Of a stretch of DNA of 64,000 nt, positions 3,276-11,703 are shown piece after piece. Under the pieces are notes generated by a model. It did no database searches. It saw only the letters and a program-made list of their open reading frames with translations, and was not told where the DNA came from. The stretch covers positions 817,001 through 881,000 of the forward strand of contig NZ_CP083746.1 of assembly GCF_020151015.1 (NCBI RefSeq), read 5' to 3'. Both the position numbers and the translations under genes were made by a program. This stretch comes from Pseudomonas sp. p1(2021b). Lineage in GTDB: Bacteria > Pseudomonadota > Gammaproteobacteria > Pseudomonadales > Pseudomonadaceae. The number at the start of each line of letters is the position of its first letter. Within the stretch, counting starts at the first letter, position 1.

Positions 3276-3371
3276 CCCTGTGGGAGCGGGCTTGACCCGC
3301 GATAGCGTCAGCAGGTTTATCCAGTGCTGCCTGGTCTGGCGCTATCGCGGGACAAGCCCGCTCCCACAGGG
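3276..3371. repeat. REP pair (inverted palindromic repeat) between algL and algI
   Basis: Two REP units lie head to head: the outer 18 bases CCCTGTGGGAGCGGGCTT and AAGCCCGCTCCCACAGGG are exact inverse complements, and each arm holds the core GCGGG..CCCGC hairpin. This is the common Pseudomonas REPIN arrangement. It sits inside the alginate operon, where the RNA would fold into a long stem between algL and algI. Confidence 0.92.
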
Positions 3372-9010: not shown

Positions 9011-10527
9011 AGCGAGTCCTCACCGTCTACTTCTTTTTCTTCGTCTTGCAGGGCTTCCTGGGCCAGGGTGCTGTTGCCGACCTGGGCCATGCTGCCGCGT
9101 GCCTGCTTTTCCTGGTCCAGCAGTTGCTGGGCCTGGCTGCGTTGTTCGGGGGTCAGTTGCTGCTCGAGCTGTTGCAGCAGCTCGGCCGACTGGGGCGTCG
9201 GGTTGGCCTGGGCCAGTTGGGCGAATACCCACGCGTTGGTCGGCGCCGGGCGGATGCCACGGCCTTCGCTGAACAGCTGGGCCAGGGCATAGTCAGCGCT
9301 CAGCTGGCCACCACGGGCGGCGCTGAGCAGGTGATCGACGGCCTTCTGCGGCTCGACGTGGCCCAGGTAGCCGCGACGGTATAGCTGGCCGAGGTAGTAG
9401 TGGGCGCTGATCTCGCCGGCATCGGCGGCCGCCTGCAGGTGTTGCTCGGCCTTCTTGGCATCGGCCGGCAGGGTCTTGCCTTCGTAGTAGAGGCGGCCCA
9501 GCAGCAGTTCGGCGCGCGGCTGTTCGGCCTCGCGGCCTTTGTCGATGTAGGCCAGCAGCTGGTCGCTGTCGCCGAGCTCGGGGAAGTCGTACACCAGCTG
9601 CGCCAGGCTCACCCAGGAGGCCGGGTTGGCCGGGGCCACGTGTTCGAGCAGTTCCTTGGCGGTCTTCTCGTCGGTCTGGCCCAGGCTGCGGTCGGCCAGG
9701 ACGCGGGCGACGCTGTCGACCCGGGTGGCCGGTACCGCACCGCTGCCGTAGGCGGCCTTGAGCTGCTGGATCAGTGCGGCCTGTTGGTCGGGCTGGGCAC
9801 GCTTCTGGTAGACGGTGGCCAGTTCCACGTAGCAGATGTCGGTGGTGTTCAGCGCGGCCTTGCAGATCTTCTCCACATCGCCCAGGTGCTGGTCGTAGGT
9901 GCCCTGGGTGCGATAGAGCAGTACCTGGGCCAGACCCGCCTCGGGGTTACCGGCGGCGCGCCACCGGTCGATCTGCTGCTGGGCGTTGACGTTGGGGAAG
10001 CTCTGCGGGTACTGCAGGTAGAGCATCGCCAGGGGGATCAGGGTGTTGCGCTCGCCTTGTTGCGCCGCGAGCTTGAGCAGGGTCTCGGCCTCCTGGCGCT
10101 CAGCCTGGGTGGCGTCGGGCTTGGCCACCAGCAGGCGGCCGAGGCGGGCCTGGGCACGCGGCGAAGTGGCCGCAGCGGCGCGGTAGGTGGCCTCCGCCTG
10201 CTTGAGCTGGGCCGGGTCGCGGGTGGCGACCTGGATATCGGCCAGGCCCACCTGGGCATCGCTGTAGCCCAGGTCGGCCAAGGCCTTGTAGTTGCGCTCG
10301 GCCAGGGCGGTATCGCCGCGCTTCATGGCTTCGTTGGCCAGGCGCTGGTCGGGCAGGCCGGAGCAGCCGGCCAGGGCTATGGCCAGGGCGCACAGTCCCA
10401 GGGCTGCACGGTCCCTGTGGGAGCGGGCTTGCCCGCGAATCGATTGCATGAGCGACACCGTAGCGCCGGCGTACCTCTTCGCGGGCAAGCCTGCTCTCAC
10501 AGGGATGGTGTTGGATTCAGAGATCAT
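9007..10527 (-). CDS. algK: Alginate biosynthesis lipoprotein AlgK, with a REP inside its signal-peptide region
   Basis: AlgK is an outer-membrane lipoprotein of Sel1/TPR-like repeats that scaffolds the periplasmic alginate complex and helps AlgE. The mature part, from the lipobox LAGC (cysteine 55 if the start is 10527), matches AlgK to the end, with helical repeats such as [18 protein letters not shown]. The odd part is the N-terminus: residues about 7-41 ([11 protein letters not shown]...RGQARSHR) are the translation of a REP palindrome at 10412-10505. The ATG at 10527 has a good AGAGGA site just after the alg44 stop. An internal ATG at 10449 (residue 27) would give a more normal 28-residue signal peptide but has no clear ribosome-binding site. 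The true start is therefore uncertain; the gene identity is not. Confidence 0.9.
10412..10505. repeat. REP pair inside the 5' end of algK
   Basis: Inverted arms TCCCTGTGGGAGCGGGCTTG and, at the other end, CAAGCCTGCTCTCACAGGGA match with two mismatches, and the arms extend inwards through CCCGCGAA/TTCGCGGG. The 94-base element is wholly within the translated frame of algK, between the ribosome-binding site and the hydrophobic part of the signal peptide. REPs are normally found between genes. Confidence 0.9.
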
Positions 10528-10539
10528 TGTTCGATCCTC

Positions 10540-11703
10540 TTACAGCCCGCGGGCCACAGCCTTGTCGATCAGCCAGTCCAGCGACGGGCCACGGTCGGCG
10601 TTGACGGAGGCAGGGCGGCCAGCCAGTTCGGCAGGCAGGGCGCCGTCGGGCTTGATCTGCACGCGGATATCCGAGGCCAGGTCTTCACTGTTGAGGTTGG
10701 CGCTGCTGACGATCTGGCCGGTGCGCACGTCGTCTTCGCCGGCGATCTGGAACTGCACGCGGGTGCCGGGCTTGACCTGGTCGAACTGGCGGTAGCTGAA
10801 GCGCGCCTCGATCATCGGATTGCTGGTACGCGGGATCAGCTGGAAGATCGGCTGGCCTTTGGCGGCGTACTGGCCGTCGTTCACCAGTTGACGCGAGACT
10901 AAGCAATCGCAGGGGCTGGTGAGGGTGCCGGAAAGCTGCTTGCCGAACAGCTCCTCGACCTTGGCCGGCTCGAGCTGCGAGTCGTCCAGGTGGCCCTTTA
11001 GCATGTCCAGCATGCTGGTGCTGAAGCTCGCCAGCGGCGCGCCCTTGACCACCTGGCCGCCACTTTCCACCAGGCTCTGCACAGTGCCGTCGCGGGGCAT
11101 GGTGACGTTGGTGGTGGGCACGGCGACCACACCGGCCTCGGCGTGGCTGACGAAGTACATGCCATACAGCGACTTGGCGATGAAGCTGAAGGCGGCCACG
11201 CCGACCACGAACACGCCGAGGCTGACGGTGACCGCGCGCAGGCGGCCGAAGGCCGACAGGCCCGAGCCGTTGTCCTTCTGCTTGCGCGCCTTGGTGAAGT
11301 TGTCGCGCTGCAGGGTGCTGAGCACGCCGCCCACGTCGATCATCTCGCCGGACAGGAAGGTGGTGATGATGTGACGCAGGGTCGCCACGTCGCGCGGCTC
11401 CAGGTTCTGGAACTGCACGCCGGTGCGGCCGGTGCTCTGGTAGGAGCGGACCTGGAACTCGACGTCCATGGACAGGCCCAGGTTGTCGACCGTGAACTGC
11501 AGGCGGCCCCGCAGGACGTCACCAACATTCAACGGTTTACTGGTGTGGAAGGACAGGCCCCCGGCGGAGAGATCGTCCACCTTCACATCGTGCGTCTCGC
11601 GGTTGCGGTCCAGGTAGCGCAGTTTGGCGGGGATGCGTACCCGTACATGCTGGCGCTGGGCTTCGGACTCATGCACGACATTGGCGTTCACGGCGGTATT
11701 CAT
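10540..11703 (-). CDS. alg44: Alginate polymerase co-factor Alg44 (PilZ c-di-GMP receptor)
   Basis: Alg44 works with Alg8 to polymerise and move mannuronan across the inner membrane and makes the process depend on c-di-GMP. The 387-residue product has an N-terminal PilZ domain with the RxxxR motif (R17, R21) and the DxSxxG motif (D44, S46, G49). One membrane segment follows at about residues 150-175. The rest is a periplasmic membrane-fusion-like domain (about residues 185-380). The gene lies between alg8 and algK as usual; its stop is 12 bases before the algK ATG. Confidence 0.95.
   Translation of the reverse strand: MNTAVNANVVHESEAQRQHVRVRIPAKLRYLDRNRETHDVKVDDLSAGGLSFHTSKPLNVGDVLRGRLQFTVDNLGLSMDVEFQVRSYQSTGRTGVQFQNLEPRDVATLRHIITTFLSGEMIDVGGVLSTLQRDNFTKARKQKDNGSGLSAFGRLRAVTVSLGVFVVGVAAFSFIAKSLYGMYFVSHAEAGVVAVPTTNVTMPRDGTVQSLVESGGQVVKGAPLASFSTSMLDMLKGHLDDSQLEPAKVEELFGKQLSGTLTSPCDCLVSRQLVNDGQYAAKGQPIFQLIPRTSNPMIEARFSYRQFDQVKPGTRVQFQIAGEDDVRTGQIVSSANLNSEDLASDIRVQIKPDGALPAELAGRPASVNADRGPSLDWLIDKAVARGL

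Follow-up and report, generated by a model that had tools for sequence, protein, structure and literature searches.

An in-frame REP pair in the signal peptide segment of algK in Pseudomonas, very probably translated and possibly kept as an mRNA element

The window, a 64,000 nt stretch of the Pseudomonas sp. p1(2021b) genome, carries genes of the alginate operon (Table 1). AlgK is required for making alginate, a slime sugar. The 506 aa open reading frame product is identified as AlgK by an NCBIfam model score of 791.4 bits (cut-off 700). The gene upstream of algK is taken to be alg44, a name drawn in part from operon position. Its product gives NCBIfam matches to adaptor models only, and all are below cut-off. 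The operon order given in a review (PMC3815931) supports the alg44 name by position.

A pair of inverted REP sequences lies wholly within the open algK frame, between the start ATG and the hydrophobic segment of the lipoprotein signal. The original prediction had placed the pair between the ribosome-binding site and the hydrophobic segment and the lipobox Cys at about residue 55; ORF and inverted-repeat mapping confirms both. The REP arms are 33 nt each, 88% complementary and 38 nt apart. End to end the pair measures 104 nt, and the 94 bases first given for it is an approximate figure.

Table 1. Features of the algK region and of the second REP site, in window positions
Feature	Position	Strand	Basis and remarks
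algK, lipoprotein precursor, 506 aa	9007..10527	minus	ORF; ATG 10527-10525
Hydrophobic segment and lipobox of algK, before Cys	10366..10407	minus	translation, judged by eye
Lipobox Cys of algK (codon 55)	10365-10363	minus	ATG-to-Cys distance 162 nt
First REP arm in algK	10478..10510, core 10484-10500	minus	inverted-repeat and motif search
Spacer of the REP pair, with in-frame internal ATG 10449	10440..10477	minus	sequence
Second REP arm in algK, inverted	10407..10439, core 10417-10433	minus	inverted-repeat and motif search
Shine-Dalgarno of algK (AGAGG)	10536..10540	minus	sequence; relatives keep TAAGAGG
alg44, upstream of algK	10540..11703	minus	ORF; stop 10542-10540, overlapping with the Shine-Dalgarno of algK
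Second REP pair of the operon, algL-algI gap, extragenic	3280..3367		motif search

One arm reads GTGGGAGCGGGCTTGCCCGCGA and is an exact match to the REP pattern. The other, GTGAGAGCAGGCTTGCCCGCGA, shows 2 mismatches, one of them in the tetranucleotide. The pair displays the features of a REPIN: a GTAG/GTGG start followed by an imperfect palindrome, and two inverted REPs able to form a single hairpin. Positions 10395-10560 give a predicted RNA fold of -90.2 kcal/mol, compared with a mean of -60.4 for shuffled sequences (sd 4.17; z = -7.15), and none of 200 shuffles folds as low. The repeat is also present in high copy, with 161 pattern matches (3 mismatches or fewer) in the 5.57-Mb genome. The same pattern read backwards has no match in the genome, thus the matches represent a genuine REP family. 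Within the window there are 14 matches at 2 mismatches or fewer, against 0.07 expected. The source genome has 5 Y1_Tnp matches, counted at the level of the Y1 family, which includes the REP-associated transposases (RAYT).

A search for algK covered 398 genomes of the genus, 396 of which gave some match, many of them weak. The sample compared here consists of the 150 best algK places, which is not a random choice; all 150 were retrieved, together with 58 named loci. Motif matches and inverted repeats decided the REP state, except that L034, L036 and L040 were assigned by hand as -+ and L002 as single. A REP core is found between the ATG and the Cys codon in 96 of the 150 best matches at 2 mismatches or fewer, and in 90 at 1 or fewer. 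When degenerate and other palindromes are included the number is 101 (79 +-, 13 -+, 7 single and 2 other). L168 and L195 were counted as REP-like palindromes lacking the REP core; these two carry a different palindrome in the same algK segment. No REP was scored in the remaining 49 of the 150 best matches, although L011, L035, L046, L048, L143 and L166 among the rows scored as none look remnant-like by eye. Thus the REP is dispensable. The algK REPs differ between genomes in family, orientation and reading phase, and other genomes hold remnants or none. The first REP core is never found before base 18 of the algK frame.

Within the ATG-to-Cys segments of the 150 genomes there are 235 pattern matches in 21 kb, a count that may include one REP twice since two patterns overlap. 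The 195 kb of mature algK sequence has 4 matches and the 58 kb of alg44 tail has none. A chance palindrome is ruled out by this enrichment together with the fold z-score and the genome and window match counts. A set of 30 further, more distant genomes shows a REP at the algK start in 11 of the 28 assessable (L380, a mis-hit, and L384, without a lipobox, were dropped).

In REP-free relatives (e.g. L003, L005 and L025) the spacing between Shine-Dalgarno and ATG is the same as in the window, and the ATG is 69 nt from the Cys codon. The frame is therefore unbroken where the REP is missing, and the real start is upstream of the REP. The comparison of algK 5' ends that the original prediction had proposed thus found the REP absent from some relatives with the frame intact, and no compared relative starts algK downstream of the REP position. 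These relatives also back its proposal of an in-frame insertion into the signal peptide n-region with the ribosome-binding site kept.

Starts were also called by a rule blind to reading frame, which takes the first ATG close to the alg44 stop and prefers one with a Shine-Dalgarno match. No alg44 end was recognised in 6 of the 150 genomes; of the 144 assessable, 143 have a start so called that shares the frame of the Cys codon. The in-frame ATG-to-Cys distances among them have 35 different lengths. The sole exception is L052, where the rule picked an ATG without a Shine-Dalgarno match; a nearby GTG with a Shine-Dalgarno is in frame. The +- elements are read in all three phases (18, 11 and 50 genomes) and the scorable -+ elements in two (7 and 4 genomes). 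On sequence grounds it is very probable that algK is translated from ATG 10527, and hence through the REP, because the upstream ATG stays in frame despite these differences in REP family, orientation and phase. The element would then be truly intragenic, in frame, after the true start and within a conserved protein gene. The internal ATG at 10449, which had been put forward as a second possible start, shows no Shine-Dalgarno match, and its Met is not kept in L042, L072 and L117, which carry the same kind of element. A start there leaves the in-frame upstream ATG of the other genomes unexplained, and it is rejected.

The REP state changes often. A tree of the 150 mature AlgK proteins requires 28 or more changes between presence and absence, of which starred branches force 10 or more, and 41 changes when six states are distinguished. 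The tree is from one protein, with 70 open branches among the 144 inner ones; it does not tell gains from losses, and a cassette exchange counts as a change. REP presence is clustered on the tree nevertheless (28 changes versus a shuffled mean of 41.5). Pairs of genomes with mature algK more than 93% identical over the first 600 nt number 293. Where the two members differ in REP state (90 pairs), median identity is 0.72 in the hydrophobic segment and 0.94 in the alg44 tails; where they agree (203 pairs), it is 0.88 and 0.95. With such low identity of the segment between conserved flanks, the algK signal behaves like a short exchanged cassette. In 91 equally close named pairs the median identity is 0.97 for the algE signal and 0.82 for the algK segment, and algK is below algE in 82 of the 91. 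The nearest named relative, P. guariconensis 20-MO00619-0, is 97% identical in its best segment; its element is of the -+ type and that of the window +-, with orientation labelled by eye.

Other gene starts and other REPs were compared with the algK site. The 58 named loci span 369 kb, beginning inside or upstream of alg44 and extending past algE. Every one of their 44 REP matches at 1 mismatch or fewer is in the algK start, and 26 of the loci have such a match. The algE start, which overlaps the algK stop by 4 nt, was recognised in all 58 loci and none has a REP there. For the 63 other REP clusters of the window's genome (60 stretches), a codon-usage score and a reading of 2 candidates established no coding case at a gene start. 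L231 was dismissed since its likely start is downstream of the REP. L249 was dismissed as a weak motif match in a gene resembling E. coli phosphoglucomutase. The family is thus mostly outside genes, as is characteristic of REPINs, and the algK copy is an exception. That REPs are seldom found in coding DNA is true of the other REPs examined, but algK departs from it.

In two other genomes, 60 stretches surrounding the best REPIN matches were examined as well; coding REPs are seen there only at algL of G271 and algK of G353. These are the loci from which the query peptides came, therefore the control consists of the other 58 stretches, some of which are the same element read from either strand. 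L301 in G271 was not accepted as a coding REP, since it has the look of an untranslated leader. A protein search with the REP-encoded stretch gave 1 match (AlgK) among 13 candidates, and is too insensitive to serve as a control.

The alginate operon displays a second REP site before algI. The algL-algI gap contains a REP in 21 of 29 loci, the window included, and in 19 of these it is a pair; 1 locus of 30, the paralogue L298, was dropped. An in-frame REP pair is also found within the signal peptide of AlgL (alginate lyase) in 2 of the 29 loci, L286 of G271 and L287 of G089. These pairs are situated about 1,220-1,320 nt upstream of algI, and algL is a second alginate gene so marked.

The hairpin was compared in 41 +- sequences of one clade. 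Pairing is kept in 93.7% of 984 cells, while slid versions of the alignment pair at most 46%. Cells changed on both sides (71) and the covariation score are above all 500 shuffles. The numbers of double-change pairs (5) and of pair types (10) in the 41 sequences are not above the shuffles (means 5.5 and 12.1), therefore the covariation stems from a few REP types common to many rows. Conversion by other REPINs would give the same covariation. Four rows pair at 19/24 positions only, and some arms are mosaic. Within the clade the REP arms show 0.84-0.89 identity and mature algK 0.888, compared with 0.64 for the n-region before the arms and 0.61 for the spacer. Conserved pairing arms are expected under selection for the hairpin, and also if other REPINs convert them. 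For the ATG-to-Cys segment the predicted fold has a median energy of -89 kcal/mol in genomes with +- elements, compared with -24 where there is no REP, a contrast that is descriptive only because longer segments are expected to fold better. The predicted accessibility of the Shine-Dalgarno is about equal with and without a REP.

Small inserts are also seen. L133, L152 and L165 have a 15-nt insert in the second REP arm, and L147, L171 and L182 have one before it. The inserts in or beside the pair are multiples of three, as though the frame were guarded.

The account that best fits these data as a whole is that of a translated in-frame REPIN at the algK start, possibly kept as an mRNA element; we give it a probability of about 0.48. 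The REPIN would have inserted in frame early in algK and would be translated as a lengthened n-region of the signal peptide. A hairpin at the alg44-algK junction that spares coupled initiation would have to sit inside algK, because the algK Shine-Dalgarno overlaps the alg44 stop. The n-region, which would be removed after export, may be the stretch that tolerates it. The hairpin may be kept for an effect on the mRNA. It could mark where the polymerase part of the transcript (algD-alg8-alg44) ends or protect that end, could slow elongation into algK, or could do both. REPIN insertion, conversion between REPINs and exchange of signal cassettes between lineages would renew the element. An mRNA role is suggested because the position is recurrent, the other starts checked lack the element and a second REP site is found before algI. 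More tentatively, the recurrent mobile hairpin in the algK signal could be a translated, position-selected RNA boundary that partitions the operon together with the REP before algI, its sequence renewed from the REPIN pool of the genome with frame and pairing kept. A review (PMC3815931) mentions evidence for internal promoters in the alginate operon, in passages that are silent on REPs.

A reading nearly as likely as the best account is that algK offers a permissive site only, where selfish REPINs are tolerated in frame, frameshifts are purged, conversion freshens the arms and the hairpin has no function. The absence of the REP from 49 of the 150 best matches, the wide variation in length and encoded peptide, and the free exchange of the signal cassette are consistent with it. 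Moreover, an open frame through a REP is common in any case: of 612 frames through 102 distinct control REPINs, 326 (0.53) are open, a rate to which an in-frame length requirement would add a further factor of about 1/3. If mere tolerance were at work, other signal peptides should tolerate REPs too, yet none is found at the algE start of the 58 loci and none of the 63 other clusters was shown to be coding. The arms are also far more conserved than the adjacent codons, which argues against it. It is improbable that the encoded residues matter, with a long basic n-region tuning Sec targeting or lipidation of AlgK, rather like the extended signals of autotransporters. Median net n-region charge is indeed +4 in +- genomes and +3 in -+ genomes versus +1 without a REP, but the different phases and orientations encode unrelated peptides, and the n-regions of L051, L052, L053, L057, L058 and L061 are not positive despite the REP. 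An untranslated leader with AlgK starting downstream of the REP or within it would agree with a published view (PMC3733652) that most REPs at P. putida ORF 5' ends may be non-coding, post-transcriptional control elements, but it is very improbable given the unconserved internal ATG without a Shine-Dalgarno and the upstream ATG in frame in 143 of 144 genomes.

Returning to the translated in-frame REPIN, the comparison of many genomes points to algK as a coding, recurrent REP case. The name REP refers to an extragenic position, and a REP at a gene start is easily put down to an annotation error. Repeats regarded as non-coding can thus be tolerated, and perhaps used, within a gene. The signal peptide, which is cut off, would be a route for a mobile palindrome to become protein sequence harmlessly. 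The algK genes also form a natural replicate series of families, orientations, phases, remnants and REP-free forms on near-identical genes, which lets one study the effect of a REP hairpin on a polycistronic mRNA.

Several known systems are similar in part. Intercistronic REPs affect operon mRNA and, like the algK REP, place a hairpin at a junction of a polycistronic transcript; the algL-algI pair is of such a kind. Unlike these, the algK REP follows the start codon of the next gene and so is translated. Autotransporters have extended signal peptides with an unusually long n-region before a normal hydrophobic segment. By analogy the algK signal would share the long n-region, but it appears to derive from a mobile repeat and its sequence is not conserved. 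Rickettsia palindromic elements are spread over many genes, whereas algK is one gene with one site and turnover of element type; the two are likened by description. These elements, which PMC3733652 mentions, are, like the algK REP, mobile palindromes in frame in genes.

REPINs as described in PMC3116915 consist, like the algK element, of two inverted REPs and a spacer, are repeated genome-wide and form a single hairpin. They are predominantly extragenic in that account, with 14 of 1,067 core 16-mers overlapping genes in SBW25, whereas the algK element lies in frame within a conserved gene. Intragenic REPs that are translated within ORFs, as the algK REP appears to be, are reported in PMC3733652; an example is recB, which in two species of Xanthomonas carries different REPs at approximately the same position. 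Against the non-coding view in that paper, the comparison of 150 genomes argues for coding and for recurrent use at one signal peptide site. For this one gene the algK case thus argues against that view, while it agrees in spirit with the control-element view. The gene may be among the entries of the supplementary gene list of PMC3733652. A literature search with algK and the REP phrase gave one paper, about flocs mediated by cellulose, and nothing relevant in a coverage that is thin for subscription papers, and prior notice is possible.

Some further observations concern the loci themselves. The algK match G034:C1:2057217-2058568 is in two adjoining pieces, like a frameshifted gene. The loci G046:C1:136151-137467 and G027:C1:374358-375662 are second AlgK-like matches with identities of 52% and 51%; for AlgI, L298 in G271 is such a second match (82%). 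These are possible further alginate-like clusters. L112 and L113, titled Pantoea sp., have an algK close to that of the P. putida group and are perhaps misnamed records.
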